From NCBI RefSeq assembly GCF_004358105.1, contig NZ_SMYL01000008.1:1-64000 (forward strand): DNA of 64,000 bases, written 5' to 3'. Origin of the DNA: Sapientia aquatica (GTDB lineage: Bacteria > Pseudomonadota > Gammaproteobacteria > Burkholderiales > Burkholderiaceae_D). Shown piece after piece: positions 4,535-21,561 of this stretch. Each line of letters begins with the position of its first letter. Position 1 is the first letter of the stretch. A program made the translations under genes and the position numbers. A model generated the notes under the pieces. It worked only from the letters and a program-made list of their open reading frames with translations. It had not been told where the DNA came from and did no database searches.

Positions 4535-4627
4535 ATGACAATCATCAAACAAGACGATTTAATCGAATCTGTAGCCGCTGCCCTGCAATTTATCAGTTAT
4601 AAAACACGCTGCGAAAAACCGCTTTAA
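4535..4627 (+). pseudogene. 5' fragment of class I fumarase cut by island
   Basis: Encodes MTIIKQDDLIESVAAALQ, then FISY, and runs out after 30 residues. Residues 1-22 match the start of the intact fumarase at 20044 (MTIITQADFIESIAAALQ, then YISY) at most positions, but with many synonymous and some non-synonymous differences. After the shared ATCAGTTAT (4592-4600) the similarity stops and island sequence begins. The KQDDLI wording is what I would expect of a native Burkholderiales fumarase, so this is read as the original gene start, orphaned by integration. Confidence 0.85.
4592..4600 (+). other. attL core
   Basis: ATCAGTTAT, identical to 20101-20109. Upstream bases also agree partly (TGCA-T--ATCAGTTAT). 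It is the last stretch shared by the two fumarase 5' ends and therefore the likely crossover segment of the island integrase. Confidence 0.7.
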
Positions 4628-4885
4628 TTCAACGGCATACGTAGGTTTCCACTATAGCAATAAACCGCCATGTGCATCTTTAATACTAGATCGCATAACC
4701 TGTTGATTTATATGGGGTTTTAACTTGTTATTTCAACACTAAAATACTCAAAGTTGCATCTTGGTCGTACAAAAGATCAACAAAATAAATATCAAAATAA
4801 CACCGATTTCCGAGTGTAAATTACCAGAAAAGAACACATACTGCTTCTGTAAGGCATAAATACATGCTTACAAGAGGAGCAGTAA

Positions 4886-5929
4886 ATGGCACTAATAAAA
4901 AGAGGCGAGGTGTACCACGTGCGTACACAAGTCGCAGGCGTACTAATCGCAAAATCAACCAAAACAAAAAACAAACGCATCGCTGAACAGCTAGAAGCAA
5001 AATGGATTTCTGAAATTCATTCTGAAGTCGTTGTCGCTAAACGCATGCCGATCACAGTCGAAAAAGCTATCGAAGAATTTCTACTTAGTCGTCGTGGCAC
5101 AGCTGGTCATGTCAACGCTGAAAATAAATTACAGATGTTCAGTGCACTTGCGAAATTGAAGCTGCATGAAGTCAAAGCAGCCGATGTGCAAAGCATCGCA
5201 TTCCAATTACTTAACGATGAAGGCTACGCAATCAGCACAGTCAACACCGCTATCATTTACTGGAATGCAGTGCAGAATTTTTGCACCAAATCCAATTACA
5301 CAGCCGGTCCAAAAATCAAACGCTTCAAAGGCCAAACTGGTCGCGTACGATTTTTAAGTGACGATGAAGTTATGCTGTTGCTTGCCAAGTTGAATCCGCA
5401 AAACGACGACTATCGTGAAAAGCGTCGTGCACAAGACAACTTAGATTTCACCGTTGCGCTATTACATACTGGCGCACGTGACAGAGAAATTGCCGACTTG
5501 AAATTGAATCAAATCGACATTGCAAATAATACGATCACCATTCATCGCAGCAAAGGCGGCACCGACACCACGCTGAAAATGAGCAATGCATTATCTGAAA
5601 TGATCAAACGTCGCATTGCGGAAGCAGACAAACCCCTCGATGGCCTATTACTGCATGGCCGTGCTGGTAATGGGTGCTTATTTCCGGAACGTGCCAAGGC
5701 TCGGTATAACAATGAGTACTTGGGCAAGGCATGCGCTAAGATTGGCTTGAAAGACGTGAATCTGCACACACTCCGACATACGTTTGCATGCAAGATGTTA
5801 CGGGCTGGAATTTCAATTGTGGAAGTGCAGCACTTATTAGGCCATCGCAATTTAGGGTCAACGATGTGCTATGCACACATGATCCCCAACTTGACTGCGG
5901 ATCGTGCTGCACAGGTGTTAAACGCTTAA
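4886..5929 (+). CDS. tyrosine recombinase / island integrase
   Basis: 347 residues. The N-terminal 50 residues (MALIKRGEVYHVRT...) look like an arm-binding region, residues 57-150 form a core-binding helical domain, and the catalytic domain follows. The catalytic set is complete: R198 in GARDREI, K223, H294 and R297 in HTLRH, H320 in LLGHR, and Y329. An excellent ribosome site (AAGAGGAG) precedes ATG 4886. Its position beside attL and the direction away from the end fit an integrase acting on the fumarase target. It ends before a bidirectional terminator. Confidence 0.93.
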   Translation: MALIKRGEVYHVRTQVAGVLIAKSTKTKNKRIAEQLEAKWISEIHSEVVVAKRMPITVEKAIEEFLLSRRGTAGHVNAENKLQMFSALAKLKLHEVKAADVQSIAFQLLNDEGYAISTVNTAIIYWNAVQNFCTKSNYTAGPKIKRFKGQTGRVRFLSDDEVMLLLAKLNPQNDDYREKRRAQDNLDFTVALLHTGARDREIADLKLNQIDIANNTITIHRSKGGTDTTLKMSNALSEMIKRRIAEADKPLDGLLLHGRAGNGCLFPERAKARYNNEYLGKACAKIGLKDVNLHTLRHTFACKMLRAGISIVEVQHLLGHRNLGSTMCYAHMIPNLTADRAAQVLNA

Positions 5930-5954
5930 TTGACATCGCCTTTACAGTATATAT

Positions 5955-5975
5955 GCTGTCGTGTAACACGACAGC
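5955..5975. repeat. island palindrome copy 1
   Basis: Core TGTCGTGT-A-ACACGACA extended by GC on both sides to a perfect 10+1+10 palindrome. It lies between the convergent integrase and AAA ATPase genes. One of five copies confined to the island. Confidence 0.9.
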
Positions 5976-5984
5976 TCAGGACAC

Positions 5985-6012
5985 AAAAAAGCCAGCGCGA
6001 AGCTGGCTTTTT
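5985..6012. terminator. bidirectional terminator after integrase
   Basis: AAAAAAGCCAGC, a five-base loop, then GCTGGCTTTTT. It separates the convergent integrase and ATPase genes. Confidence 0.85.
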
Positions 6013-6030
6013 GCATTACAGATTTTTGGG

Positions 6031-6732
6031 TTAGATAGTTCCTCCGAGGTCAACACCAATAGTGACAATGGCGCTGCAATATTCACGCATGGAACCTTGA
6101 CTGGCAACTGCAATTTCTTGCAGCAGTGCTGCATTGACTTCATTACCAGTTAAGCCCATGAGTCGAAGGAAATGTCGCCCCATTTGTTCCATGTCGGCAG
6201 GCTTAGGTTGATTCATTTCAATCATGTGCGCGCGATCTTTCAGGCCACGTTCAAGTTTTTCCGGAAAGTTGGTTGTCATTATGAAGATGGTTTCTGTTGC
6301 ATTGCTAATTAACGCTTTTAGTGAAGCCTGTGTTGCAGGCGTCAGAAGATCGACTTCATCCAGTATTTCGTAGTAATAACCTTTCGGCGATGTATGCACT
6401 ACTGACTGAGATCGCTTATGCAAATCCTGCAACAACGATACTGAATTGTTGCCAAGTCCGCACGATGTAACTTGATAATAGTGCTGTGACTGCCACATGC
6501 TATTGGCATTTGCAGTGGGCATCAAATTACCGCTTGCTTCGATCAAATCGGGCAGCATTTTCGCCAGCGTAGTTTTGCCTGTACCGTTAACGCCCCACAA
6601 ACAAATCGCTTGCTTACTCATCGGAAATGGCAGTTGTCCATTGACGATACGCTCAATCGTTTGTTTTGAAACAGCATCGCTAATTAAAAAATCAGCAAGT
6701 GACGCAGGTTGGAAAAGATTTATATTTGCCAT
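6031..6732 (-). CDS. AAA ATPase, clamp-loader-like
   Basis: 233 residues. Walker A GVNGTGKTT is at 47-55, Walker B YEILDEVD at 121-128, and a sensor-1-like TTN at 153-155, followed by a helical C-terminal region. The order and the tyrosine-rich strand before the acidic box recall clamp-loader and RarA-type AAA proteins that act on DNA. The protein is short and lacks the usual collar domain. It is preceded by a larger partner gene (45 bp gap) on the same strand, so the two are probably cotranscribed. With the polymerase-like gene at 15520 it could belong to an island replication module; that is inference. Confidence 0.65.
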   Translation of the reverse strand: MANINLFQPASLADFLISDAVSKQTIERIVNGQLPFPMSKQAICLWGVNGTGKTTLAKMLPDLIEASGNLMPTANANSMWQSQHYYQVTSCGLGNNSVSLLQDLHKRSQSVVHTSPKGYYYEILDEVDLLTPATQASLKALISNATETIFIMTTNFPEKLERGLKDRAHMIEMNQPKPADMEQMGRHFLRLMGLTGNEVNAALLQEIAVASQGSMREYCSAIVTIGVDLGGTI

Positions 6733-6776
6733 GATATTTTCAGCGGAGCTTCCGCCCCGCTGCCTTGTAGTTAGAT

Positions 6777-7655
6777 TTAGATAGTTGAGTTAAGTGCGAG
6801 GGACATTGCAGATTGCTTTGCAGGTGTTGCTGCTGCACTGATTTTCTGCATATCAACTTTGTGTGCCGTGTAGTGCGCTGCTAAAGCAGCTTTTACAACA
6901 GACTCGTTTTTGACCACACTGTTTACTTCCAGCTCGCCGGTTGGCAAGTAAGTGACGACCAGAAGCATCAGCTTATCGACATCATCGGTGCTGAACTCCA
7001 TTTGTTTTGTGTCCGGCTTGAACAACATAAGCGGTTTGTTTTTTACTGCTGTGGTTGCAACTTCGACACGCTCTGCTAATGTAATTCCACCGCTTTTGGT
7101 AGCAGTTCGAATTTCTTCGATACCGCCCTTTTGTGCAATCCAGTCAGGCAGTGCATCAACAGTTAATGGTGTAGCGCCTTTACCTGCAGTTAGTGCTACA
7201 CGCAGGGCCAAACTGTACGCACTGACGCGGCGACGGTCTTCACCAAAGACAGCCTTTACAACTTTGTTCATGCCGTGCGTTTTAGATAGGGTCTTGAAGC
7301 CGCGTGCATGTATAAAGCGATCCAGCCCCTTTGCTAATTGTGCTCTGGCTTCTTTTGTCGTTTCAGGCGACTTCATTACCAGATAGTAGTTGTAGCATTT
7401 AGCCAGAATGCTATACAGCCGAGCATGGCTTGCTGCCAGTTCCACACCTTCCCAGTTGCTGCGAGCAGCTTCCAGTTTTTCCAGCACATTCACAGCTGTA
7501 AAGCTGTCAATGTCGCTGTTTTTCAGTGCTGCATCAATGCCGTCGAATTCATTAACTAGCACTTGTCGTCCAACGCCGGGCAACACCGTAAATTCTGTCG
7601 CTGTCACATTTACTGTAGTTGCCGAGTTTGCTGCTACGTTTGTATTAATGTCCAT
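6777..7655 (-). CDS. hypothetical protein, partner of AAA ATPase
   Basis: 292 residues if started at ATG 7655, which has AGGAGA at the right distance; the reading frame stays open to 7748 without a better site. No family is recognised. The protein is helix-rich with a central basic segment (FGEDRRRVSAYSLALRVAL) and a C-terminus that is alanine-rich. It is directly upstream of the AAA ATPase on the same strand, which suggests an oligomeric complex or adaptor for it. Divergent from the gene at 7797. Confidence 0.65.
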   Translation of the reverse strand: MDINTNVAANSATTVNVTATEFTVLPGVGRQVLVNEFDGIDAALKNSDIDSFTAVNVLEKLEAARSNWEGVELAASHARLYSILAKCYNYYLVMKSPETTKEARAQLAKGLDRFIHARGFKTLSKTHGMNKVVKAVFGEDRRRVSAYSLALRVALTAGKGATPLTVDALPDWIAQKGGIEEIRTATKSGGITLAERVEVATTAVKNKPLMLFKPDTKQMEFSTDDVDKLMLLVVTYLPTGELEVNSVVKNESVVKAALAAHYTAHKVDMQKISAAATPAKQSAMSLALNSTI

Positions 7656-7796
7656 CTTAAATCTCCTGTGTGATATCTCTGCAGCAGTGGCGTTATTGCC
7701 GTTAAAGATTTGCTGTTTCGATGTATCCATTAGAATTCTTTTACACACTTAATTGAATAATCAGATAGGATTGTGTTTTTATTTGTGTAAATTACG

Positions 7797-8750
7797 ATGA
7801 CGGCTAAGCTAAAACCGTGGAAATTGCGTGCAGCCGATTACAGCAAACCGGGCTGGCATACTAGGCCGACCGTTGGTTATGAATTAATGTTTGAATTTCT
7901 GCGGCTAAGTCCCAGCTATGAATTGGCTCGCAAAGCAAATCAAGAAGGGCTAACGGAAGATGACAAGAAATTACTACCCAACGACTTTAATCAAGTTCTC
8001 AAAACCTATAAGCTGCTGGGCAATGTGCAGAGATATTTATTCCGGTCTTGGTGGTTAAAACGCGGATTGAAAGTATTTGGCAATCCACATTCCAAACCCA
8101 AAGTGCATAAATTTGGATTCCTGCCGCATGGTGTTGATGTGTCACCGGATTTAGTTATGGACGATCTGGAAAAGATACTCAGCGACACCCGCCGTGACGA
8201 AGGGCTTGGCTCCACGCTTTTGATTTCCGTACCGCTGGGTCGTCGCAAAGGCGAAGTCCTTAAAGAAATCGGTCGTTTGCTTGACGCACAAGTTGACACC
8301 AGCGCCAGCGCCACAGCGCCATTAATAAAACTAGAAGGTCAAAGGCTGCGCGCCAAGGTTTTAATGAATGGAATTCGACTGCTCTGGATTAAGGCTGCAA
8401 AACCGAAGTGGGAACTATGGCGCCTGGGAGCGATGGCAAGACTAAGCAAAACCTATTCACAAGAGCTCGATCCAAAATCACCACGTAAGGCGTCAGACAA
8501 GATTTATGATAGAGATATGATGAGCAAAATTACCTATCGTGCATTACTCAAATTTGAAGCCGTCGCCGAAAATGCGGCTCGTGGAAAATTTCCGTCTGAC
8601 GCACCGGTTGATCAAGTAACATTCGACTATCCGCAACTGGCAAAAATTATACAGCGTAAAAATATGTGGGAAGATCAGGAGAAGAAACGACTCCTTGACG
8701 CTTATGAGGCCAGACTTGCTCTTAAACTGCAGTTGGTGGCCGAACCATAG
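7797..8750 (+). CDS. hypothetical protein, DUF6499-like N-terminus
   Basis: 317 residues. The N-terminal segment GWHTRPTVGYELMFEFLRLSPSYELA weakly resembles the short W...EFLRRNP.Y motif of the DUF6499 family that occurs in plasmid and ICE regulators. The rest is rich in basic helices and not recognised. No clear ribosome site precedes ATG 7797. It diverges from the 7655 gene and its stop codon abuts palindrome copy 2. A DNA-binding role is possible but unproven. Confidence 0.55.
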   Translation: MTAKLKPWKLRAADYSKPGWHTRPTVGYELMFEFLRLSPSYELARKANQEGLTEDDKKLLPNDFNQVLKTYKLLGNVQRYLFRSWWLKRGLKVFGNPHSKPKVHKFGFLPHGVDVSPDLVMDDLEKILSDTRRDEGLGSTLLISVPLGRRKGEVLKEIGRLLDAQVDTSASATAPLIKLEGQRLRAKVLMNGIRLLWIKAAKPKWELWRLGAMARLSKTYSQELDPKSPRKASDKIYDRDMMSKITYRALLKFEAVAENAARGKFPSDAPVDQVTFDYPQLAKIIQRKNMWEDQEKKRLLDAYEARLALKLQLVAEP

Positions 8751-8767
8751 TGTCGTGTTACACGACA
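8751..8767. repeat. island palindrome copy 2
   Basis: TGTCGTGT-T-ACACGACA, starting at the base after the TAG stop of the preceding gene. Confidence 0.9.
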
Positions 8768-8832
8768 TTGGAACTCGGAGGTTACAAATCTTGCTCCAAT
8801 TGTGGTTTTATAAAGCAGAAAAGAACCCGACC

Positions 8833-9465
8833 ATGAATAAGTCATCAATTCTAATATTCTCACCAGATAACGAGCCATATCTCGGCAGTCAACTACTTAA
8901 GCTGTTTGATGACACCATCGTCAAATCTATGGCAGTTCATCGGCAGCTGGGCGCGCGAACTTACGCAGCGGACCTATCACAACTGCAAATCGCCGCCACC
9001 GAAATAATCCCTCAAGGCGTGAGTATCGCACTGAGCATGAGGGAGTTGATAAGACAAGGGTATCTATTCTCTGCGGGAATTTTAATGCGCCCCCTTGTTG
9101 AGCGCGCAGGGATGATTTATTACCTTCATAAATATCCAGAAGCCGTTAGGTCTTGGCACGATGGCTGGCCGCGCAAAACGCAGCCGACATTTGACAAACT
9201 TCTCGACCTTATAATGCCATCAACATGTGATGAGGAGCGAAAAGAAACTCTGGAAATACTCAATAAGTTGGTGCATAGCGATCCCAAAACCGCATCTTAC
9301 AATTCCACCACTAGATCGGATGGTCTGTGCGCTTCTGCTGCTGGCAAGGAACTTAACGAACCGATAAAAGCTGATGCAATAAGTGCATTTGCGACACGAT
9401 GCCTCGACAGACTAACCAGTATATCGATCCAGATTCTTGGTGCGCCGAGCGAGCAAATCCATTGA
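8833..9465 (+). CDS. hypothetical protein, possibly DUF5677-like
   Basis: 210 residues from ATG 8833. The helical segment SMRELIRQGYLFSAGILMRPLVERAGMIYYL resembles the (A/S)xxLxRxLxE helices of DUF5677-type proteins, a group of helical proteins often seen in accessory regions. This match is weak. The frame is open upstream to 8695 but would overlap both the previous gene and palindrome copy 2, so the internal ATG is preferred; its ribosome site is poor. Confidence 0.5.
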   Translation: MNKSSILIFSPDNEPYLGSQLLKLFDDTIVKSMAVHRQLGARTYAADLSQLQIAATEIIPQGVSIALSMRELIRQGYLFSAGILMRPLVERAGMIYYLHKYPEAVRSWHDGWPRKTQPTFDKLLDLIMPSTCDEERKETLEILNKLVHSDPKTASYNSTTRSDGLCASAAGKELNEPIKADAISAFATRCLDRLTSISIQILGAPSEQIH

Positions 9466-9734: not shown

Positions 9735-10307
9735 TCAAGCCAATTCGACCGCTGCGCGTTTTTGATTGTCGTTGCAGTCGATATAGACCTGCGTGGTCTG
9801 GATTGAACGGTGACCTGACAAGGACATCAGCACACGCACCCCAACACCTTTAGCTGCAAGATTAGTAATGAACGACCTGCGACCGCTGTGACTGCTTGCG
9901 CCGTCAATGCCAGCGTTCCGATAAAGATAATGGAAATGCTGGGTCAACGTATTTGCAGTGAAGCCTTCCCGGATACGCTTTTGTGTATAAAATAATTTCT
10001 GCCCCGGATTTGCGGATGCATACAGCGCCAGATATTTTGTCAGCTCTTTCTGGAGCTTTTCATTTACAAAAACTACACGGGCGTGATTGCCTTTAGTTTG
10101 TTCAGCATCCAAACGTATTTCACTGCGTACTTTTCCATCTGCGCCGAGCACGTCGGAAATACGCAGCGCAGCCACTTCCCCAACCCGCATTCCAGATAAA
10201 TGTGTGACCAGCAGCATCGCCCTATTCCGTGCAGCGTGTTTTCTGGTAGCGACATAATCGAGTACGCGACGCAGTTCTTGCGGGGTTAAAGTTTTAGCTT
10301 GGCTCAC
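9735..10307 (-). CDS. minimal tyrosine recombinase (catalytic domain only)
   Basis: 190 residues, GTG start with AGGAG at good distance. The full catalytic set is present: R41 (GMRVGE), K72 (TKG), H140 and R143 (HSGRR), H166 (LSGHR), Y175. The N-terminal core-binding domain is absent; the protein starts about where the catalytic domain begins (LTPQELRRVLDYV). Such short recombinases occur on plasmids and islands and may act in resolution, inversion or with a helper. No start-site evidence supports a longer form. Confidence 0.88.
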   Translation of the reverse strand: MSQAKTLTPQELRRVLDYVATRKHAARNRAMLLVTHLSGMRVGEVAALRISDVLGADGKVRSEIRLDAEQTKGNHARVVFVNEKLQKELTKYLALYASANPGQKLFYTQKRIREGFTANTLTQHFHYLYRNAGIDGASSHSGRRSFITNLAAKGVGVRVLMSLSGHRSIQTTQVYIDCNDNQKRAAVELA

Positions 10308-11027: not shown

Positions 11028-13076
11028 TTGAATATTTTTTACCGAAAAGACATTGACGGTCTGCGAGCATTGGCCGTCTTACTCGTTATTATTTGTCATG
11101 CTGGATTCAAATCATTTTCCGGTGGATTTATCGGGGTCGACATTTTTTTTGTCATTTCTGGTTTTGTCGTAACGAATTCGATTACAGCATCACTCGAACA
11201 AGGGCGATTCCGATTTTCTGAATTTTACGTCCGAAGGGCGAAACGATTAGTTCCCGCACTTTACACGGTGATGTTAGTTACGCTTGCATTTGGCATTCTG
11301 CTTCTGGTTCCAGATGCCGCCTACAGTATCATGAAAAATATCGGCGCCGTTACGATATTTTCTTCCAACATTTATATTTCCAGCTTGATCGGATATTTTG
11401 ATCCCAGTGCTGAAAATATGCCTCTGCTGCACACATGGTCTTTATCGGTGGAGGAACAGTTTTACCTTGTGTTACCACTGCTTTTATTCCTTCTGAGAAG
11501 ACAATCTGATCGATCTAAAATATTGATAGATTCAGCTATTCTGATTGGATCGTTATCAGCATCTCAATGGGCGGTCTCAGTTGGGAGTCCAGGTTCCTAT
11601 TATCTTTTTCAATTTCGGATTTTTGAATTCATGCTGGGAGTCATCGCGACCAGAATATCTTTTTCGCTGAGCAACTCAAGAAACAACGACGTAGTTTTAT
11701 TGTTGGGCGTAGCCATTATTTTTGCCTGCGCTTTGACAATGGACGCTTTAACGCCGTTTCCCGGGCTAGCCGCATTATTGCCTTGCTTAGGCGCAGTCAC
11801 GATTATTTTGTCATGCCAAAAGTCGCCGGTAGGACAAATTATTTTTGGCAATAGAAGCTCTGTGATGTTGGGGAAATTATCATACAGCCTCTATTTATGG
11901 CACTGGCCTGTATTTTTTGCGTTCCGACATTTTGATCTAAAATCGGCGTGGGCAATGTTCGGCGCAATAATCGTTTCATTGGTACTGACGGTATTTACCT
12001 TCCTGTATATAGAACAACCATTGCGTCAGATGAAAATGTCATTAAAAAAAGCAGCCTTGCTTTTCATTGGCATGCCCTTTTTGCTAGTTGTTTGCCTGAC
12101 TGCCACAGGGAAATTGACTCACAATTTCCTTTTTCTTTATCCTCCAAAATTTCAAGAAATCTATAAAGTGCTCGCCGTTTCCAGACACGACAATCGGTCA
12201 ACATTTGCGCAGAAAGAACTTCCTTTGCCAGCGAAAGATGTATTCGGAAATCCACTTGGCATTACTGACGCAGTCATATGGGGCGATTCCCACGCCCTTA
12301 GTTTTCGCAATTTTTTTGATGCATTGGGAAAAGAGTACAACGTGGCTATGTTTGATATGTCCTGGCCAGGATGTCCGCCTGTTTATTTTTCAGAAGCGTT
12401 GGCAATACCTGGTTCGGGAAAAAATATTCCGCCAAATGCAACCATATGCAAAACGAATAACGATTTGGTGATGAAGTACATTCTCTTCCATAGCGAAATA
12501 AAAATTGTTTTCATTTCAAGTCGATGGCTGACTTTCAAAGATGACTGGATTAAATTTGATGAAATTCATCCGATATTTTCAACAGAACAGGTAAAAAAAT
12601 CACTGTTTGAAACGGTGAAAGTTTTGCAAGCATCAGGAAAGAAAATTGTATTTATTGATGATTTGCCTGAAATTCCAAAATCATTAAAGGATTGCGTAAT
12701 TTCACGTGATACGTGGTTTGGAAAGAATAATTCATGTTCGATGCAGGCTGACGATGCATTAAGGCCATATAACGCGTACATCGCACCAGTTATGGCGGAT
12801 TTACAAAGTCAATTTTCGGCGGTCACTGTATTACATACCTACGACGTTCTGTGTGATTTGAATTGGTGTCATACAGATATATCTGGTCACCAGATATATC
12901 AAGTGGACGATGTGAACCATTTGGCTCTTACGGCGGGCCCTATCTTTTATAAGGCATATCGCGAAAAACATCCGCTAGAACTGGATCAATTGTTTCACCG
13001 TCGGAGTACTTCTCAACCATTGGAAAAAAATGATAATACTGATCGTCCGATAGCGAGTAATGCCGAACAGCTTTAG
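11028..13076 (+). CDS. acyltransferase 3 with SGNH domain (OafA/YrhL type)
   Basis: 682 residues. The N-terminal half is an acyltransferase-3 membrane domain: YRKDIDGLRALAVLLVIICHAG at the start, about ten hydrophobic helices, and HTWSLSVEEQFY. The C-terminal half is a periplasmic SGNH hydrolase-like domain with WGDSH and a D-x-x-H pair in VDDVNHLAL. Such proteins O-acetylate lipopolysaccharide or other surface glycans. The TTG start is required to keep the conserved YRxDIDGLRAL segment; its ribosome site is weak. As island cargo it may alter surface antigen or a phage receptor, which is inference. Confidence 0.9.
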   Translation: MNIFYRKDIDGLRALAVLLVIICHAGFKSFSGGFIGVDIFFVISGFVVTNSITASLEQGRFRFSEFYVRRAKRLVPALYTVMLVTLAFGILLLVPDAAYSIMKNIGAVTIFSSNIYISSLIGYFDPSAENMPLLHTWSLSVEEQFYLVLPLLLFLLRRQSDRSKILIDSAILIGSLSASQWAVSVGSPGSYYLFQFRIFEFMLGVIATRISFSLSNSRNNDVVLLLGVAIIFACALTMDALTPFPGLAALLPCLGAVTIILSCQKSPVGQIIFGNRSSVMLGKLSYSLYLWHWPVFFAFRHFDLKSAWAMFGAIIVSLVLTVFTFLYIEQPLRQMKMSLKKAALLFIGMPFLLVVCLTATGKLTHNFLFLYPPKFQEIYKVLAVSRHDNRSTFAQKELPLPAKDVFGNPLGITDAVIWGDSHALSFRNFFDALGKEYNVAMFDMSWPGCPPVYFSEALAIPGSGKNIPPNATICKTNNDLVMKYILFHSEIKIVFISSRWLTFKDDWIKFDEIHPIFSTEQVKKSLFETVKVLQASGKKIVFIDDLPEIPKSLKDCVISRDTWFGKNNSCSMQADDALRPYNAYIAPVMADLQSQFSAVTVLHTYDVLCDLNWCHTDISGHQIYQVDDVNHLALTAGPIFYKAYREKHPLELDQLFHRRSTSQPLEKNDNTDRPIASNAEQL

Positions 13077-13308: not shown

Positions 13309-13764
13309 CTATTGAGCGTTTTGAGGTGCGTTCCCATCGTATTTAAATTTGTATCCGATTTGGACGCAGAAGAGCATCATCTTATCCACCGGCATCACTT
13401 TGAGGGCATGGTCACCAGAAAATAAGCCGCCAAGCTTAGCCACGTCTGGTTGGCTTTCAGATTCGGGGAAACCAACCGAAACGTTATCGCTGCCATCAGT
13501 TGGATATGAAGCGATCATAAATTTTTGATGGTTCATGAGCGCTAAATTAGTATAAACACACATCATCCAGCGCGACCCTACAGCGCTTCGCGTGTCGAAT
13601 CCAGGAATGTTCAGAATCAAAACGCGATCAGTACTGGAGACCACTTTAGCCTTGTATTCAATATTCGAAAAGCCTGTCTCTTTTGTATTGAACTCTATTG
13701 TTTCTCCGAATGCGGATATACACGCCCAACTCAATAATGCGGCCAAAGCTATTTTTATATTCAT
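13309..13764 (-). CDS. secreted hypothetical protein
   Basis: 151 residues from ATG 13764, which follows GAGGAT. The first 20 residues (MNIKIALAALLSWACISAFG) form a typical Sec signal peptide, so the mature protein is periplasmic or exported. No family recognised; the mature part is beta-rich, with two internal cysteines (MMCVY, LFCVQ) that could form a disulfide. Convergent with the acyltransferase. Confidence 0.65.
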   Translation of the reverse strand: MNIKIALAALLSWACISAFGETIEFNTKETGFSNIEYKAKVVSSTDRVLILNIPGFDTRSAVGSRWMMCVYTNLALMNHQKFMIASYPTDGSDNVSVGFPESESQPDVAKLGGLFSGDHALKVMPVDKMMLFCVQIGYKFKYDGNAPQNAQ

Positions 13765-13870
13765 TATTATCCTCAAATTGAAGAACTTTCTCACTGACGG
13801 CAATGCAGCCGTTTTTTGCCATTCAAAGAATTTTATATGCGACGGCTCATTCTCAATCGATTTAAATACA

Positions 13871-15250
13871 TCACTCGCTGCCAGATTGGGTTTCAGCGGT
13901 AGACTCTGTCTTCGCCTTAGTTATAGGACTGTGTTTTTTGGCGGTTTCTATTTTTTCACTGGCCATCCGTGAAAAACTTCCAATTAGATCGGGTGCTATT
14001 TTAATAGCCTGCTTGAATAGATCAGAATCCAGCAATTCGTGCCAAGGGCTTCCATGTGTTTTGTGCTCAACAAACCGCAGTGGCTGTTCATCGAGCCGGG
14101 CCAACGCAGATGAAAAGAGTTTGTTCTGGAAATCTGCATCGAGATTTACGGCCTCTCGTCGATAGCCTTCGTAGGCCTTTGAGATTGACGCTTTGTATCC
14201 GTAATCTTCGGCTAACCGGAAACGCTGACCAATTTGTTTGGTTGCAATCCAAGCAAACCAAACAGGGGCACCGACAGAAAGTAACGACAAAAATAACCGT
14301 GTCCAGACTATTATCGGTGGAGTGGAAGATTCAATCGCGACGGAAAGTTGATTAAGTTGATGGCTCCCAAAAACAGCGCCTGCGCAAAGTGCTACAACCA
14401 AACCGATGACCCAATAAATCATTGACCTTGTAAGTAATTCAGCTCGGTCATGGAATGCTGCCGCCAATCCGAAGCTGGTGGACGTCCGCATAGCATCTTC
14501 GCATCTATTTATTATATCGGTAGCAGATTCAGTACTGGATTTAAGTAAAGAGTCCCAATCATGTTTTCGCTTATCTATTTCCTGATTGTAAATTGCAATA
14601 TCTGAATGCAGTGTGGATTCACAAAGTTTTATATCATCGAGAATCTTTTTCACAGCACCTTGATCTTTTGCTGTTAAATCGCGAAGTGATTGAATTTCTT
14701 CGCGCGCCTCACGGAGAGTGGCGAGATCGGTTGGAAGTTGGTCTGCGGCAGAGTGCGCCTCCACAATCTGGGCCGCCATCGCTTCAAGGGCATCAACTTT
14801 CGGTTCCAGCGCAGCAACGCGGCTTACCATGCCTCTTAGCTTTGTCTGTATATTTTTCGCAGTTTTAGCATCTTCCACAACTTTTTCATGATCCAACAAT
14901 AGAACTGGTGACAAATCACGCTCAAGGCATTCGAGGGTAAGCACATATGCTGGAATTGCATGAACACCGTTTCCATTAAAAAGGTGAGGAATCGTGTTCC
15001 CTATGAGAAATTGAAGCCGATCAGGATACGTCCCAAGATATGCTTCGTTTACTTTTAAGTGATCGCCACCTAATGTCGTAATTTTGTTTGCTAAAGTGAC
15101 CGCAATATTCGCCAATTCATGGCGATCTACAACAGCCTGATTCCAAGTCGAATGGATAATACCGGCGGCTCGATCCTCACCAGTCGATCCTTTTACAGCA
15201 ACAGCTACTTCCCGAAGCTTTAATTCCAACGCAGTGAGAACCGGATGCAT
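13871..15250 (-). CDS. coiled-coil membrane protein, possibly DUF6161-like
   Basis: 459 residues. Residues about 110-260 are a long coiled coil, followed by two transmembrane segments (YWVIGLVVALCAGAVFG; LFLSLLSVGAPVWFAWIA) and a C-terminal soluble domain with GYKASISKAYEGYRREA and LARLDEQPLRFVE. That C-terminal arrangement recalls DUF6161-type proteins, which are seen in accessory and defence-rich regions; the name is from memory and not confirmed. It looks like a membrane-anchored sensor or effector. It is separated by 270 bp from the polymerase-like gene and has its own promoter region. Confidence 0.6.
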   Translation of the reverse strand: MHPVLTALELKLREVAVAVKGSTGEDRAAGIIHSTWNQAVVDRHELANIAVTLANKITTLGGDHLKVNEAYLGTYPDRLQFLIGNTIPHLFNGNGVHAIPAYVLTLECLERDLSPVLLLDHEKVVEDAKTAKNIQTKLRGMVSRVAALEPKVDALEAMAAQIVEAHSAADQLPTDLATLREAREEIQSLRDLTAKDQGAVKKILDDIKLCESTLHSDIAIYNQEIDKRKHDWDSLLKSSTESATDIINRCEDAMRTSTSFGLAAAFHDRAELLTRSMIYWVIGLVVALCAGAVFGSHQLNQLSVAIESSTPPIIVWTRLFLSLLSVGAPVWFAWIATKQIGQRFRLAEDYGYKASISKAYEGYRREAVNLDADFQNKLFSSALARLDEQPLRFVEHKTHGSPWHELLDSDLFKQAIKIAPDLIGSFSRMASEKIETAKKHSPITKAKTESTAETQSGSE

Positions 15251-15519: not shown

Positions 15520-17079
15520 TTAATCGCCGGACAGCATGTCAGCGTCAACCATGCCCCAATGTGTCATGATTTGTCTTTTAGGAGCCGCGAATGGAATTGC
15601 AGATATGGTGCAATGTTCAGAAGCATAGGCCTTAACGGAAGATGCCGCATTGCTGGTGCCGCCGTTCTGAGAATTGGCTCGGGAATTTTCAACAACCATA
15701 TGCGCCCGATGGTCGCTTTCAGCTCGGTCAATATCTTGATCATACTTACAAACATAATCACTGGCATGGATAGGAATAATGGCATCGCCTTCGAAATTGA
15801 GAAATTCGTATCGGCACATCAATGCATATTTAATGTCAGCGATTTGCTGGGCCGACAACGGTTTGTCCAAATACGCGCAGTCATGTACCAGCAATTTTAT
15901 TTTGTAATTTTCAGGAATCATGTTCACGAACATATTCAGTGCACCTGACTCCAAGCATTGATATAGCCAAGCAAGTTTTTGATTCTTGGTGCGCTTGGTT
16001 TTGTCTTTGGGATTGATCTCGGCATATGTTTTTCCAAACAATTCAAAATCACCTTTGCCAAGTGAATTCAGAATAACTGCCGATACTTGATCAAGCTGAC
16101 TCTTGATGCACATGAATTCTGCATTACATAACAGCTTGTGATATTTTTCTTGACCGATTTTTTTACGAATTGAATTGTACGGATTGTCTTTTAATTGAGC
16201 ACCGAAACCGACTGAAGTGAAAATTTCTTTCATCCATTCTTCACTAATGCCAATATCTTTTGCGATGCGCCTGCGAATGACACTGCGGTTTTTTATGTAA
16301 TCCTGCAACGCACCAGTTTTTAATGTCGGATCAATTTGTCTTGCAAATGAAGTCATCAATGCGTAGCTGGCAGCTTTGAAATCGTAGCGATAGCACCGAC
16401 CAAGTGCAGCATGACGAACTTCTTTCGGAATGCGTTGCAAGCTAAGACCGTGACCATGTATGCGCCCACTGTCAATCTCATCCCAATATTCATCCAGATA
16501 TGCGACACCATTATTATCCCGTACAAGCACCTGAAGTTGGTTAGCAATCTGTAGGTTCCGCAATAGTTTCTCGTCGTATGCTTGCCCTTTGCGGTTCTTG
16601 AGTGACAGTTTTGTTTGCTTGATATACGAAGCCAGGGACTCAGGATCAATTTCGACGCTGTGATTAGCTAAGTCCTGCAATTCTTTCAATCGCTTCGGTT
16701 CACATTCAATAATTAAACTGCCCAGTTCTTCCATAATTTCCTTTTTATAAATCGGATTAAATATAACGCGACTGACTCGATGTGTAACGCTGTTGCCTTT
16801 GTAAGCACTGATGATTAGTGATGTCGCTGGATGCTCTTGCATGAGATGATAGACATATCCGGTGCGGCCACTTATTTTATATCTGCCGCTGGCATTATCG
16901 ACTGACTTGGCAGAGAAATTCATTTCGCCATCGCTCACTTCATCTGAACTCATCAGCATAAAGCGCTTGGCTATTTCAGACATCACTGCTGCAACATATT
17001 TATCAACATAGCGCAATGCCATCTTGTCCGTAATGAACGGATGTAATTTTTTTAGTTCTTCCTTCAATTTTTGTTTCAT
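15520..17079 (-). CDS. family-A polymerase-like protein
   Basis: 519 residues. Motif A is YRYDFKAASYALM (D233), preceded by GRIHGHGLSLQRIPKEVR, which parallels the R...LQNIP...R segment of DNA polymerase I-type enzymes. Motif B is probably IRRRIAK followed by KEIFTSVGFGAQ (about 268-295). Motif C is LLVHDCAY (H399, D400), preceded by LESGALNMFVNMIPENYKI, which mirrors the QGTAADIIK...LLQVHDE helix-strand of family A. The thumb is short and no exonuclease domain is visible. The second acidic residue usual in HDE is C401, which is odd. DNA polymerase, primase-polymerase or T7-RNAP-type activity are all possible. Ribosome site AGGA precedes the ATG. Confidence 0.6.
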   Translation of the reverse strand: MKQKLKEELKKLHPFITDKMALRYVDKYVAAVMSEIAKRFMLMSSDEVSDGEMNFSAKSVDNASGRYKISGRTGYVYHLMQEHPATSLIISAYKGNSVTHRVSRVIFNPIYKKEIMEELGSLIIECEPKRLKELQDLANHSVEIDPESLASYIKQTKLSLKNRKGQAYDEKLLRNLQIANQLQVLVRDNNGVAYLDEYWDEIDSGRIHGHGLSLQRIPKEVRHAALGRCYRYDFKAASYALMTSFARQIDPTLKTGALQDYIKNRSVIRRRIAKDIGISEEWMKEIFTSVGFGAQLKDNPYNSIRKKIGQEKYHKLLCNAEFMCIKSQLDQVSAVILNSLGKGDFELFGKTYAEINPKDKTKRTKNQKLAWLYQCLESGALNMFVNMIPENYKIKLLVHDCAYLDKPLSAQQIADIKYALMCRYEFLNFEGDAIIPIHASDYVCKYDQDIDRAESDHRAHMVVENSRANSQNGGTSNAASSVKAYASEHCTISAIPFAAPKRQIMTHWGMVDADMLSGD

Positions 17080-17360: not shown

Positions 17361-17410
17361 CTGGATGTATTGCTGGAAGTTTTGGTTGTGCCTGCGCTGG
17401 CGTGCTGCAC

Positions 17411-17429: not shown

Positions 17430-17436
17430 TCTACAA

Positions 17437-17471: not shown

Positions 17472-17608
17472 AATGGATGTTTTTAACAATGAGAAGGTGC
17501 AGATCGCACTGACTATTTATCACTCTTATTTCGATGACTGATCAATCCTGAAATTGAATCTTTTCTTAAAGAAAGCATTGGATTATTTTCCACCACTGTT
17601 CGACAACA

Positions 17609-17629
17609 AGCGTCGCTTAAAGCGACGCT
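17609..17629. repeat. 10+1+10 palindrome
   Basis: AGCGTCGCTT-A-AAGCGACGCT, perfect, with the same 10+1+10 architecture as the TGTCGTGT palindromes but different sequence. It lies 18 bp from palindrome copy 5. Confidence 0.75.
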
Positions 17630-17647
17630 CTGACAACATTAGCAAAC

Positions 17648-17664
17648 TGTCGTATAACACGACA
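17648..17664. repeat. island palindrome copy 5
   Basis: TGTCGTAT-A-ACACGACA, one mismatch to the consensus, 8 bp past the stop of the minus-strand gene at 17673. Confidence 0.85.
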
Positions 17665-17672
17665 CTGCATGA

Positions 17673-17942
17673 CTAATATTCGTCGGGCATCAGCAAACAA
17701 GTTGAGCTGCGATCAGCTTCAGTAATGATCCAAATTTTTTCACTGCCGAATTGGTATGAACTAAATATGCGTAAATCGTGCTGTACAGCGTGAACATTTG
17801 CTTCGACGTCCTCAATACTTAAATCGCCATAATCACCCGCTATATGACGGCCTAGTAATAGCAGCGGGTTGATTTTTTGTGTTTCACAGAACTTCAACGC
17901 TGCTGGTGTTGCAACTACTGACCCTAATTTGAAAAGTGGCAT
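17673..17942 (-). CDS. plasmid-related small protein
   Basis: 89 residues from ATG 17942, which has AGGAG upstream. It matches a family of short proteins common on plasmids and ICEs of proteobacteria: an N-terminal (F)KLGxxVATPAAL, a middle RHIAGDYGDL...D...N and a C-terminal IWIITEADRSST.LLMPDEY. The function is not known. Its presence supports a plasmid-like ancestry for the island. The frame is open to 17981 but the extra residues are not family-like. Confidence 0.8.
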   Translation of the reverse strand: MPLFKLGSVVATPAALKFCETQKINPLLLLGRHIAGDYGDLSIEDVEANVHAVQHDLRIFSSYQFGSEKIWIITEADRSSTCLLMPDEY

Positions 17943-18084
17943 AACAGTGCTCCTGAGTGGAAAGCACAACGTTATTGTCACTCCGCGAAATGGACAACCG
18001 AAATGATTCAGGCAAATTCCGGTTGCTCATTCAAAAGTCTGAAAACAAACTACTGATTCCAACTTACTTAATGGAGTCAAAAAA

Positions 18085-18537
18085 ATGTCTAGTACACTTT
18101 CCAAATTGAAGCTCGTCAATGTGCAAGCTGATCTGAAAAATCCGACCGTTTCGCGTCGCAACCGGCTGACCGCGCAAATTGAAGGTCAGATTGCATCGGT
18201 GAGATGCGCCATTGCTGGTGAAATATATGCAGAAAAAAGGCAGAAATACGTAACGGATCATCAGACCGGAGAGCGGTCTCTGGTTGAGATTTCCAAAAAA
18301 GTTAAGCCGTGGTGGTTTATTTCTGCTACAAATAAGGCTAACTTAATTTTGAAATATGGATCGAAAAAAATCGAGATAGTGAAAGGAAAAAATGCCGTGG
18401 AAGTTGATAACATGGACGAACTGATCGCCACACTGGAACTCATTAAAACTGCTGTTATTGCTGGCGAACTTGATATCCAGATTGAAACTGCTTGTGGCGC
18501 ACTGCGGGCAGGATTTAGTAAGAAGAAAAAGTCGTAG
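18085..18537 (+). CDS. DUF6641-like plasmid/island protein
   Basis: 150 residues. The start SSTLSKLKLVNV, the basic RRNRLTAQIEGQ, the KPWWF segment, and YGSKKIEIVKGKNAVEVD..ELI..L...K.AV.AGELD match the pattern of DUF6641 proteins that accompany plasmid and ICE modules. Function unknown. GGAG precedes the ATG with a slightly long spacer. Probably followed by the 18606 gene in the same transcript, with an attenuating hairpin between. Confidence 0.7.
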   Translation: MSSTLSKLKLVNVQADLKNPTVSRRNRLTAQIEGQIASVRCAIAGEIYAEKRQKYVTDHQTGERSLVEISKKVKPWWFISATNKANLILKYGSKKIEIVKGKNAVEVDNMDELIATLELIKTAVIAGELDIQIETACGALRAGFSKKKKS

Positions 18538-18560
18538 TTGGCAATTTTCTTTTGCTATCG

Positions 18561-18603
18561 CAAACCCCTCGTATAGGTAAATATATTACTAACGAGGGGT
18601 TTG
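18561..18603 (+). promoter_or_regulatory. hairpin covering the ribosome site of the 18606 gene
   Basis: CAAACCCCTCGT (18561-18572) and ACGAGGGGTTTG (18592-18603) form a perfect 12-bp stem with a 19-nt loop. The right arm contains GAGGGG (18594-18599), six bases before ATG 18606, so the folded RNA would hide the ribosome site. It might also act as a weak terminator, but no long T-tract follows. Confidence 0.7.
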
Positions 18604-18605
18604 TT

Positions 18606-18821
18606 ATGACTTTAGAAGAAATTATAGAAGCTGGCTCTGGCGCAGCCGAGCAGCGTGTACTGCGTATGACTGCCAATGCCAAATCAGCACAGGACCGCGC
18701 TAAACAATTGAAGGATCAGGCTGATGCCAGTGCTGATATATTGAAGCTGCGCCAGACTCGGCTGAAAGCGGCCAAGGTACGAAAGGCTTCGTGCGGCAAA
18801 ATGATCACGCCGTACAAATAA
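18606..18821 (+). CDS. small helical hypothetical protein
   Basis: 71 residues, MTLEEIIEAGSGAAEQRVLRM..., mostly one long charged helix (coiled-coil-like) ending in a basic tail. The start is set by GAGGGG at six bases, which lies in a stable hairpin. It follows the DUF6641-like gene on the same strand. No family recognised. Confidence 0.6.
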   Translation: MTLEEIIEAGSGAAEQRVLRMTANAKSAQDRAKQLKDQADASADILKLRQTRLKAAKVRKASCGKMITPYK

Positions 18822-19087
18822 ATCGGTGATTGTCCGCAAGAGAGAGGATGACGCAAAAACATGCCTATCGACCCGTTAAAATAAATGGATATTTGATCGT
18901 ACGGAGACGCTATTCACCACAATTTGCGGCAAAACCCTGACAACAATATGCAATACACAATTTATTGAATAATAAATTTTCCATTGAGTAAGCGCTGCGT
19001 AGAAATCAGAGTACGCTGTGAGGCTTAGTAATGGTTATGTTGTTTGTAAATGATGAACAATCGCTTATTGCGATAGGTTGGAAAATT

Positions 19088-19417
19088 ATGAGCTACTACG
19101 GAATTACAAAAATAAGCTGGGATAAATCGCACGGCTTTGTTAAGCAAGTTATTCTGCACAAAATGTCCCGCAATACAGAAGACAGCCGGATTTTCGGATT
19201 GGATGCCGGCACAAAGTTACCATATTACGAAGTCGCTTCGTTGATCGATAAAGGCAACCATGTTTACGTGATGCTGAACGATGGTCCGGGCAGTTATAAA
19301 GCCGATGATGGAGTGGGAGTAATGCCTGGGTATCAAGAAGAATATATAGAGAGTGTTGACGAAGCGGGAAATCCAACGGGTGCGCTATTTGATTTGCCTG
19401 CTTGGATTGAAAAATAA
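19088..19417 (+). CDS. hypothetical protein
   Basis: 109 residues from ATG 19088 (AGGTTGGA upstream); the frame is open to 19031 and the longer form cannot be excluded. MSYYGITKISWDKSHGFVKQVILHKM weakly resembles DUF3892-type small proteins, which start with an ITxI strand and end with a basic-acidic tail. Function unknown. Confidence 0.5.
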   Translation: MSYYGITKISWDKSHGFVKQVILHKMSRNTEDSRIFGLDAGTKLPYYEVASLIDKGNHVYVMLNDGPGSYKADDGVGVMPGYQEEYIESVDEAGNPTGALFDLPAWIEK

Positions 19418-19484
19418 ATGACTGAATCTCGTATATGTTGGAACGTCAATTTACAAATAAAGCTGCCTTGACCAAGGGATATGC

Positions 19485-19703
19485 ATGACACCTGCATCAC
19501 ATATTCATGAGTGGCAGAATAAAATTGTAGGTATTTGCGAAATAAAATTGCGACGCAAATTATCGAATAAGGAATTGAATTTTATACGCTGCACTGACGA
19601 CACGATTGTTTTGGAAATGCTTGAAGATGCGGTAGGTGATTTATCTGATATTGAACTCAAACCCTACCTGAATTCCGAAATACATTTGGATTTTGGAGCA
19701 TGA
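19485..19703 (+). CDS. small hypothetical protein
   Basis: 72 residues with AAGGGAT upstream of ATG 19485. Helical, acidic C-terminus (LEDAVGDLSDIELKPYL). No recognised family. The last gene of the island before the terminator at 19776. Confidence 0.5.
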   Translation: MTPASHIHEWQNKIVGICEIKLRRKLSNKELNFIRCTDDTIVLEMLEDAVGDLSDIELKPYLNSEIHLDFGA

Positions 19704-19775
19704 ATGCTTCGCCCCACAATCTGTGTCACTCGACAGAACGTTCCTGAAATACATAAATCAAAATTCAAAAATCTT

Positions 19776-19803
19776 AAAAGCACTGATCATTCAGTGCTTT
19801 TTT
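19776..19803 (+). terminator. rho-independent terminator
   Basis: AAAAGCACTGA, loop TCAT, TCAGTGCTTTTTT. It insulates the restored fumarase from island transcription. Confidence 0.85.
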
Positions 19804-19845
19804 GTTACTTATTAATCAACTTTTCAACTAGGTAATTACTTGCTT

Positions 19846-19854
19846 TGCTATAAT
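19846..19854 (+). promoter_or_regulatory. extended -10 promoter for restored fumarase
   Basis: TGCTATAAT at 19846-19854 is an extended -10 (TGnTATAAT); no good -35 is present. It lies after the terminator and about 190 bp before the fumarase ATG, so it is an island-supplied promoter candidate. Confidence 0.5.
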
Positions 19855-19893
19855 GAGCGGATTAGTTGGGCACTGGTTTTAGCAGTGCGTTTC

Positions 19894-19959
19894 GATGTAC
19901 AAAATTCTTTAGCAGCGCAGATTTGTTATCTTTTTAGACACGTAAAAGATGTACAAAAT
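19894..19959 (+). repeat. direct repeats near right end (possible integrase arm sites)
   Basis: GATGTACAAAAT occurs at 19894-19905 and 19948-19959, 54 bp apart. TTTAGCAGYGC occurs twice nearby (about 19879 and 19909). A related CGTACAAAAG lies near the left end (about 4768). Repeats of this sort next to an att site can be arm-type binding sites of integrases. Confidence 0.4.
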
Positions 19960-20043
19960 CGTGACAGTCGTTTTTAGGTACGTGAGCTCTGTCACACTTT
20001 ACTATTGCGATGCTTTTTAAGCCATATAAATCAAGAGGTTACA

Positions 20044-21561
20044 ATGACAATTATTACCCAAGCAGATTTCATCGAAAGCATTGCAGCGGCTTTGCAGTAC
20101 ATCAGTTATTACCATCCGGCTGATTACATTCAACATTTGGCACGTGCTTACGAGATCGAACAAAGCCCCGCAGCCAAAGACGCGATTGCGCAAATCCTGA
20201 CTAACTCACGTATGTGCGCTGAAGGCAAGCGCCCGATTTGCCAAGATACCGGCATCGTTAACGTGTTTATGAAGATCGGCATGGGCGTGCGCTTTGAAGG
20301 CTTTACTGGCTCCATCATCGACGCAGTCAATCAAGGCGTTCGTCAAGGCTACAACAATCCAGAAAACGTACTGCGCGCATCGATCGTGGCCGATCCTTTG
20401 TTTGATCGTAAAAACACCAAAGACAACACACCGGCTGTGGTGCACATGGAACTGGTGCCGGGCGATAAATTGGATATCCAAGTCGCCGCCAAAGGTGGTG
20501 GATCCGAAAACAAATCCAAGTTTGTTATGCTCAACCCATCTGATTCCCTCGTGGATTGGGTCATGAAGACTGTCCCAACGATGGGCGCAGGTTGGTGTCC
20601 GCCGGGAATGTTAGGTATTGGTATTGGCGGTACCGCCGAAAAAGCGATGTTGATGGCGAAGGAATCCTTAATGGAAGACATCGACATGCACGAATTAAAA
20701 TTGCGCGGTCCAAAAAACAAAACCGAAGAATTGCGTATCGCCTTATGCGATCAAATCAATGCGCTCGGTATCGGCGCGCAGGGCTTGGGCGGCTTGACCA
20801 CCGTGCTCGACGTGAAGATCAATATGTATCCAACGCATGCGGCATCCAAGCCAGTAGCAATGATTCCAAACTGCGCTGCAACGCGTCATGCACATTTCGT
20901 TATGGATGGTTCTGGCCCTGTGTATATGGAGCCACCATCGTTAGATACTTGGCCGAATGTGCATTGGACTCCCGACACCGAAAAATCCAAGCGCGTCGAT
21001 CTCAACACATTAACCAAAGACGAAGTCGCTAGCTGGAAGCCGGGCCAAACATTGCTATTGAACGGAAAAATGTTAACCGGTCGTGACGCGGCTCATAAAC
21101 GCATTCAAGACATGCTAGCCAAAGGCGAGCCGCTGCCAGTGGACTTCACTAATCGCGTGATCTACTACGTTGGTCCAGTTGATCCAGTGCGCGACGAAGC
21201 CGTTGGCCCAGCAGGCCCAACGACCGCAACTCGTATGGATAGCTTCACTGAAATAATGTTGGCTAAAACTGGTTTGATTTCCATGATTGGTAAAGCAGAG
21301 CGCGGTCCAGTGGCGATTGAAGCGATTAAGAAACATCAATCTGCTTACTTGATGGCAGTTGGCGGCGCGGCGTATTTGGTGTCGAAAGCAATCAAAGCAG
21401 CCAAAGTCGTGGGCTTTGCTGATTTGGGTATGGAAGCGATTTACGAATTCGACGTGGTTGATATGCCGGTGACTGTTGCCGTTGATGCTAGCGGTACATC
21501 GGCGCACACCACTGGCCCTAAAGAATGGCAAGCCAAAATTGGCATTATTCCGGTTAAATAA
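20044..21561 (+). CDS. fumarate hydratase, class I (restored by island)
   Basis: 505 residues, the usual length for the class I iron-sulfur fumarase of Burkholderiales. It converts fumarate and malate in the TCA cycle. Three cysteines likely to hold the 4Fe-4S cluster are visible in RPICQDTG, GAGWCPPG and IPNCAATRH. The first 22 codons come from the island and differ from the original start at 4535; the rest, from about 20110, is host sequence. AAGAGGT precedes ATG 20044, better than the ribosome site of the old start. A long hairpin follows. The gene is probably functional. Confidence 0.95.
   Translation: MTIITQADFIESIAAALQYISYYHPADYIQHLARAYEIEQSPAAKDAIAQILTNSRMCAEGKRPICQDTGIVNVFMKIGMGVRFEGFTGSIIDAVNQGVRQGYNNPENVLRASIVADPLFDRKNTKDNTPAVVHMELVPGDKLDIQVAAKGGGSENKSKFVMLNPSDSLVDWVMKTVPTMGAGWCPPGMLGIGIGGTAEKAMLMAKESLMEDIDMHELKLRGPKNKTEELRIALCDQINALGIGAQGLGGLTTVLDVKINMYPTHAASKPVAMIPNCAATRHAHFVMDGSGPVYMEPPSLDTWPNVHWTPDTEKSKRVDLNTLTKDEVASWKPGQTLLLNGKMLTGRDAAHKRIQDMLAKGEPLPVDFTNRVIYYVGPVDPVRDEAVGPAGPTTATRMDSFTEIMLAKTGLISMIGKAERGPVAIEAIKKHQSAYLMAVGGAAYLVSKAIKAAKVVGFADLGMEAIYEFDVVDMPVTVAVDASGTSAHTTGPKEWQAKIGIIPVK
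20101..20109 (+). other. attR core
   Basis: ATCAGTTAT, codons 20-22 of the restored fumarase, identical to 4592-4600. Confidence 0.7.

Follow-up and report, generated by a model that had tools for sequence, protein, structure and literature searches.

A genomic island, very probably integrative, within the 5' end of the Sapientia aquatica fumarase gene and the replacement gene start that it brings

We analyzed the first 64,000 nucleotides of contig NZ_SMYL01000008.1 of Sapientia aquatica, hereafter the window (its own genome is G000; G001 to G004 are other genomes of the same genus). We are very confident that about 15.5 kb of DNA within the 5' end of the fumarase gene of this bacterium is an integrative genomic island, which has brought the gene a replacement start. 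A previous sequence-only reading had placed two fumarase heads (N-terminal coding pieces) at 4535-4600 and 20044-20109, and both were present at the two ends of the island, with the following layout:

4535..4600, + strand: native head of fumarase (22 codons) on the attL side, flanking the island on its left; same protein as the G002 and G003 heads, 89 and 85% nucleotide identity
4592..4600, + strand: attL core ATCAGTTAT, the longest block common to both junctions
4601..4885, + strand: left end of the island from core to integrase, from the sequence and a motif listing of the attL region, with GTACAAAA at 4767-4774
4886..5929, + strand: tyrosine integrase, 347 amino acids (aa) (Phage_integrase, E 3.6e-27; phrog_1, E 8.9e-44)
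20044..20109, + strand: island-borne replacement fumarase head, 22 codons, with the attR core at 20101-20109; 70 and 68% nucleotide identity to the G002 and G003 heads
20110..21561, + strand: native body of the class I fumarase (505 aa in total), 94% aa identity to G002 and G003; NF004885 and TIGR00722 above cut-off

The junctions, open frames, chimeric gene, empty sites and recurrence described below can be read directly in the sequences. A direct-repeat core, ATCAGTTAT, was found within fumarase coding sequence at both ends (4592-4600 and 20101-20109), identical over 9 bp, in agreement with the earlier remark that the two heads share their 3' ends. The left copy reads MTIIKQDDLIESVAAALQFISY and then continues into island DNA as KTRCEKPL-stop, a frame of 30 codons, while the right copy, MTIITQADFIESIAAALQYISY, belongs to an intact class I fumarase frame of 505 aa starting at 20044, in which the replacement coding piece is in frame with the fumarase body; both frames were thus as first described. 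The head motif GCNYTNCARTWYATHAGYTAY (A-L-Q-[YF]-I-S-Y) occurred twice in the window and in 0 of 100 shuffles. The codons of the two heads had been said to differ throughout. The differences were real, but their extent had been overstated, with 19 of 66 nucleotides and 13 of 22 codons affected (8 synonymous, 5 not). When 4535-4600 was joined to 20110 onward, the result was 505 codons and a stop, with no internal stop. The G+C content was 0.415 to 0.463 in windows inside the island vs 0.472 to 0.506 outside.

The expectation that relatives with an empty site would exist was borne out by two genomes of the genus, G002 and G003, in which acs is followed by one continuous, uninterrupted fumarase whose head matches the left copy and not the right one. 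Their head proteins are identical to the left head of the window. Nucleotide identity to G002 and G003 was 89 and 85% for the left head, 70 and 68% for the right head and, on average, 82 and 81% for the fumarase body (windows over the first 600 nt after the head), which argues that the left head and the body share one lineage and that the right head is foreign. The two other genomes of the genus, G001 and G004, also had a single uninterrupted fumarase, with different upstream genes. We compared the heads in register with those of 20 relatives, of which 17 were nearer the left copy and three nearer the right. Four of the 24 rows were left out of this comparison (L028 and L031 gave no head; L015 and L020 had longer heads, out of register), and the body values of L024 and L032 were shifted and were not used. 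The exact head motif was carried by 102 of 399 genomes of the order, with two copies in the window's own genome only, which makes chance or paralogy unlikely. This count also addresses the counter-reading, raised with the initial proposal, that the heads are ordinary paralogues, since the two-copy motif was seen in one of the 399.

The same arrangement recurs in other genomes. Integrases 65, 66 and 47% identical to that of the window were found in a Burkholderiales metagenome-assembled genome (MAG; G778, contig L043), a Rhizobacter MAG (G779, contig L044) and a further genome of the family of G779 (G952, L069), in each case immediately following a fumarase head that breaks off after the Ile-Ser-Tyr codons, as in the window. 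Both island ends were seen in G778 and G952 and the left end only in G779, where the fumarase contig starts at residue 66. The intact fumarases of G778 and of G952 begin with a different head of 22 codons, and the native heads there have 23. In G952, acs lies upstream of the cut head; the intact fumarase is on another contig, preceded by three small genes shared with the window and in the same order and orientation as at the right end there. In G778, the intact fumarase is on a separate contig (L054), and the island-type genes upstream of it include a short recombinase (67% identical to that of the window) and DndC. The other contig, L043, carries DpdB-like, SspH-like and PbeC/DndD-like genes, and the PbeC/DndD gene is divided between them, one contig end covering model positions 1-163 and the other 190-672, hence L043 and L054 are probably neighbors and would delimit an island of about 16.5 kb (summed). 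Together with the empty sites and the head/body chimera, these two further genomes with both ends uphold the original proposal that an island with an integrase occupies the 5' end of fumarase and supplies the new head. The Dnd/Pbe-like genes of the G778 island, of a phosphorothioation-type defence (L043 7395-12224, L054 12522-14390), are unlike the content of the window's island.

Within the family of G779, the head motif was present in 311 of 399 genomes and occurred twice in four (G952, G1052, G1119 and G834). Motif counts are lower bounds, because heads with other codons and islands split between contigs escape the motif. Two of the four were rejected as islands: G1052 has two fumarase genes at two loci, one complete and one cut by a contig end, and the double motif of G1119 is an overlap of two contig ends. 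G834 has two contigs (L077, L078) with a near-identical start of the fumarase body and different heads and upstream genes, which could represent either a strain mixture or another replaced head; the stretches of L077 and L078 that were fetched held no relative of the window's integrase. G1140 was considered as a decayed fumarase island and rejected, its integrase facing away from the fumarase and grouping with integrases that lack a nearby fumarase head. At this locus (L070 8180-15100), a broken integrase faces away from an intact fumarase, accompanied by a reversed fumarase piece (codons 27-64), and a decayed fumarase head lies about 6.6 kb away.

The interrupted gene seems to be the only fumarase of its hosts, because G000, G778 and G952 each had one class I fumarase at the thresholds used and none had a FumC above cut-off (best scores of 38.2, 32.8 and 37.5 bits vs 664.75). 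The FumC result is weaker evidence for G778 and G952, as their completeness is not given. Among the empty-site genomes, G002 has one FumC above cut-off and G003 none.

The integrase gene at the left end of the island is intact and starts 285 bp from the core. Residues R198, K223, H294, R297, H320 and Y329, which we take to be the tyrosine-recombinase catalytic set, were invariant in both four-sequence alignments. Only two relatives at 65-66% identity were returned by a scan of genome contigs, those on L043 and L044. A match at E<=1e-30 was obtained in 6 of the 392 genomes of the window's family, with at most 32% identity outside its own genome, and none of the four other genomes of the genus had a relative at that threshold. 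Four of the 399 genomes in the family of G779, G779 and G952 included, had an integrase at E<=1e-40. Viral contigs scanned with the single protein yielded no close relatives, and scanning them with the four-row integrase alignment yielded three distant ones (26-33%). Among phages and plasmids, 711 and 853 records matched, each below 60% identity, and the best 20 of the 711 and the best 20 of the 853 were all below 30%. A tree built from 12 integrases placed the four located behind fumarase heads in one group of five with an integrase from a prophage-like region of the window's own genome (fork support 91/95, drawn open).

This prophage-like region, on contig C58, encodes an integrase 63% identical to that of the window, a homologue of the gene at 17673, and open reading frames (ORFs) that look terminase-, portal- and capsid-like (named by eye). 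Its site, identified by a 12-bp end match (L002 1204-1215 / L047 4201-4212), is intergenic and outside fumarase. Two viral contigs of about 36 kb (L081, L082) encode integrases 33% identical to that of the window. These lie behind the last part of a membrane-protein gene that is found between acs and fumarase in L044, L070 and L076, and in L082 fumarase itself comes next. A neighboring site at the acs-fumarase locus may be used by another element family.

The candidate signals of the attachment sites and of the leader of the replacement head are listed here.

19776..19801, both directions: terminator-like hairpin (2 found, one per strand; shuffle mean 0.4)
19846..19854, + strand: island sequence TGCTATAAT, extended -10-like and a candidate promoter for fumarase (noticed by eye; not called by the strict scan)
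19951..19995, + strand: block of GTACAAAA, GTGACA and TGTCAC, candidate right-side integrase arm sites (spacing kept in G778 and G952)

The blocks shared at the junctions are ATCAGTTAT in the window, TGCAGTACATCAGCTA in G778 and CAGTACATCAGCTACTA in G952, so that a crossover site common to all three would fall within ATCAG[CT]TA. In the window, G778 and G952 alike, the sequence preceding the replacement head holds ACAAAA and TGTCAC at distances from the ATG that agree to within 2 bp. These could possibly be integrase arm sites; the GTACAAAA at 4767-4774 on the left side is another possible one. In a gap-free comparison of these three upstream regions, 18 of 120 columns were identical, a number reached in 1 of 2000 shuffles (expected 8.3, standard deviation 2.8), with a contribution from the common ribosome-binding site. 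The longest identical run was three columns, reached in 92 of 2000 shuffles, and thus no single motif stands out by this measure. A control with the native promoters (11 identical columns), out of register for G952, was set aside. The new ribosome site ascribed to the replacement head could be read in the sequence; for the new promoter, which would come from the island, the -10-like element is the only candidate in the window. Insulation of the fumarase leader is a possible role of the hairpin at 19776-19801. G952 also has a terminator-like hairpin upstream of fumarase, on the fumarase strand, and none was found at that position in G778. Between head and integrase, no forward-strand terminator-like hairpin was found in the window, G779 or G952, and G778 has one. 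This G778 hairpin, which lies in the gap between head and integrase, makes it less likely that every island has its integrase driven by the native promoter.

We propose that the tyrosine integrase would recombine a circular form of the island at ATCAG[CT]TA, i.e. at the Ile-Ser-Tyr codons that close the opening 22-26 codons of the class I fumarase gene. A second fumarase head would reside in the attachment site of the island (attP), equipped with a leader and a ribosome-binding site of its own and probably also a promoter. A crossover inside the core would sever the host head, which would stay beside the integrase, and would fuse the island head in frame to the host body, keeping whole what is apparently the only fumarase; the host would retain a whole enzyme because attP carries the replacement head. 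Excision would rejoin the native head to the body. Integrase activity, promoter activity, excision and transfer are what we infer from this arrangement. It seems rather improbable to us that the islands go further and swap control of the host's only fumarase, with integration state, integrase level and fumarase output coupled. Under such coupling, fumarase in the integrated state would run from an island leader that also holds integrase arm sites, and the native fumarase promoter would point into the integrase; if true, it would tie island retention to central metabolism. The orientation of the native promoter and the lack of a forward terminator before the integrase in the window, G779 and G952 leave room for such coupling, and the G778 hairpin speaks against it.

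Several observations weigh against the proposal of an integrative island or parts of it. The integrases behind fumarase heads do not form one clean clade, as the prophage-like integrase of the window's own genome, which uses a different site, is the sister of the window's integrase (95/93). The fumarase label, which on this tree included G1140 even though it was not counted as a member, needs three changes, and as few were obtained in 100 of 500 shuffles, hence clustering of the label is not shown; a change of target within the integrase group and repeated adoption of fumarase are both possible. The continuity of the islands in G778 and G952 is deduced, because their two ends are on different contigs, and the three shared-gene homologues of G778 are on the left contig and differently arranged. 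The three relatives with a head nearer the right copy comprise G004, from the same genus (77 vs 74%), and two of the order. Resemblance among the replacement heads does not clearly exceed what the bodies predict (13, 15 and 19 differences in 63 nt vs 18.3, 16.3 and 16.3 expected), and only 13 differences likewise separate the native head of G778 from that of G952. Finally, the strict sigma-70 scan predicted no promoter in the right-end leader of the window or in the G778 leader, and in the G952 leader one on the opposite strand only.

We scanned 14 proteins of the island, the larger ones, each against Pfam and/or PHROGs. Besides the integrase, the features between integrase and replacement head are as follows.

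6031..6732, - strand: AAA ATPase, clamp-loader-like (phrog_168, E 2e-20; AAA, E 1.1e-7)
6777..7748, - strand: ORF for a protein of up to 323 aa; 296-aa part without match in Pfam, PHROGs, PADLOC or NCBIfam
7797..8750, + strand: ORF for a protein of 317 aa; no family match in Pfam, PHROGs, PADLOC or NCBIfam
8695..9465, + strand: ORF for a protein of up to 256 aa; 213-aa part without match in Pfam, PHROGs, PADLOC or NCBIfam
9735..10307, - strand: short second tyrosine recombinase of 190 aa, limited to the catalytic part (Phage_integrase, E 1e-27)
11028..13076, + strand: cargo, acyltransferase with SGNH domain (Acyl_transf_3, E 1.7e-35; SGNH, E 5.5e-33)
13309..13803, - strand: ORF for a small protein; no Pfam match for its 153-aa part
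13871..15250, - strand: coiled-coil-like protein, 459 aa (phrog_34659, E 4.3e-72, unknown function)
15520..17079, - strand: 519-aa protein, distant relative of a small Polaromonas plasmid protein
17673..17981, - strand: shared small gene 1, up to 102 aa; homologues in G778 (65%), the own-genome prophage-like region (56%) and G952 (70%)
18085..18537, + strand: shared small gene 2, DUF6641, 150 aa (PF20346, E 1.3e-10; phrog_31551); G778 50%, G952 57%
18606..18821, + strand: shared small gene 3, 71 aa; 55% homologues in G778 and G952
19031..19417, + strand: ORF for a protein of 128 aa; no Pfam match

The short tyrosine recombinase has homologues at 66-67% identity in the islands of G778 and G779. 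The 519-aa protein aligned with the Polaromonas plasmid protein at 28.6% identity over 51% of the query (E 1e-9). It had no family match in Pfam, PHROGs, PADLOC or NCBIfam and no sequence match in the PDB up to E 1, and neither it nor the 150-aa protein had relatives in the viral scans. An AlphaFold model of it, predicted without an alignment, was unusable, with a predicted local distance difference test (pLDDT) value of 36. The Polaromonas plasmids that bear its relatives also carry RepA and ParA, and it is possibly a replication gene product. Among the 14 scanned proteins, we recognized no relaxase or gene for type IV secretion or conjugation, and no phage structural, capsid or packaging gene; nor was a helper gene identified.

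Three other explanations were weighed. That the two heads are ordinary fumarase paralogues, one of which decayed to a 5' fragment with no site-specific recombination, is scarcely credible. Paralogues do occur in one relative, G1052, with its two fumarase genes at two loci, but the left remnant of the window measures only 66 nt and breaks exactly at the shared core, beside an integrase; three other genomes show a break at these codons, again beside a related integrase; in comparison with G002 and G003, foreign sequence is confined to the first 22 codons and the body belongs to its own lineage; and the four other genomes of the genus have one fumarase copy each.

The two remaining explanations concern what kind of element the island is today, and either may overlap with the integrative island that we favor. 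It could be an old, immobile remnant, delivered by the integrase and since deprived of mobility, whose head is now host sequence. The lack of a recognized conjugation or phage structural gene in the protein scan and the lack of an integrase relative at E<=1e-30 in the four other genomes of the genus would fit a remnant. We still hold this to be somewhat unlikely, given an intact integrase with conserved residues, two cores identical over 9 bp, and related islands in other genera that bear different cargo. It is plausible, at somewhat less than even chances, that the island is a mobilizable or satellite element with plasmid-like replication, moved by a helper phage or a conjugative plasmid. The resemblance of the 519-aa protein to a small plasmid protein, the clamp-loader-like ATPase, the 15-17 kb size, and the relatives of the integrase and of the small gene at 17673 in the prophage-like region all point this way; against it, no relaxase, capsid or packaging gene was recognized in the scan, and neither family searches, the PDB nor the model identified the 519-aa protein.

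Mobile DNA beside a fumarate hydratase gene has been reported before. In Xylella, the remnants pd-r1, ol-r1 and xap2 are described as having the fumarate hydratase gene on one side and a division gene on the other, close to tRNA-Cys (PMC2605562); they share this neighborhood with the island, and the passage of that paper describing them does not mention head replacement. Two further papers were dismissed as prior descriptions of a fumarase target: PMC2830990 is unrelated in its pertinent part, as is PMC7272582, where the corresponding passage concerns a Listeria island flanked by a gene for class II fumarate hydratase. In the open-access literature searched, class I fumarase is undescribed as a target of integrative elements; the catalogue 10.1093/nar/gkaa156 was outside that search, and a prior listing is therefore possible. 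The fumarase target and the recurrent set of islands look new, and the strategy itself is known.

With this island, a central-metabolism gene that is apparently the only fumarase of its hosts joins the restored docking sites of mobile elements, and the choice of fumarase recurs in several Burkholderiales genomes. It offers a testable case of an element taking over the leader and the N-terminus of a core enzyme. The candidate attachment site ATCAG[CT]TA in fumarase, with its matching integrases, could also serve genome engineering in Burkholderiales.

Integrative elements that restore their target gene are reportedly the subject of the TIGER/Islander work, and SXT/R391 integrative and conjugative elements (ICEs) are large conjugative elements. 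As a general rule, such elements hold in their attP a substitute for part of the target gene, according to the part of PMC10111431 that treats this point, and many attB sites fall in protein-coding genes, as stated in a passage of PMC12884075. The hint that the restoring strategy was itself new had to be dropped, as it is already published for dusA and prfC elements in the sections of PMC8409611 devoted to them. In the dusA elements (IMEVchUSA3 and relatives), a tyrosine integrase inserts in the 5' end of the gene and a new promoter is brought along, with a new N-terminus of equal length that is 61% identical over 35 residues; promoter, excision and mobilization were demonstrated experimentally (PMC8409611). 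The fumarase island resembles them, as described there, in the position of a tyrosine-integrase element in the 5' end of a protein-coding gene and in replacing the N-terminus at equal length (17 of 22 residues identical). It differs from them in that its promoter, excision and mobility are proposed from sequence, no conjugation-type gene was recognized in it, and the target is fumarase instead of a tRNA-modification gene. In the SXT/R391 ICEs at prfC, the 5' end of a translation gene is replaced together with its promoter, as that paper relates (PMC8409611). Unlike these ICEs, the fumarase island has no recognized conjugation genes, and the gene whose start it replaces encodes an enzyme of the tricarboxylic acid cycle.

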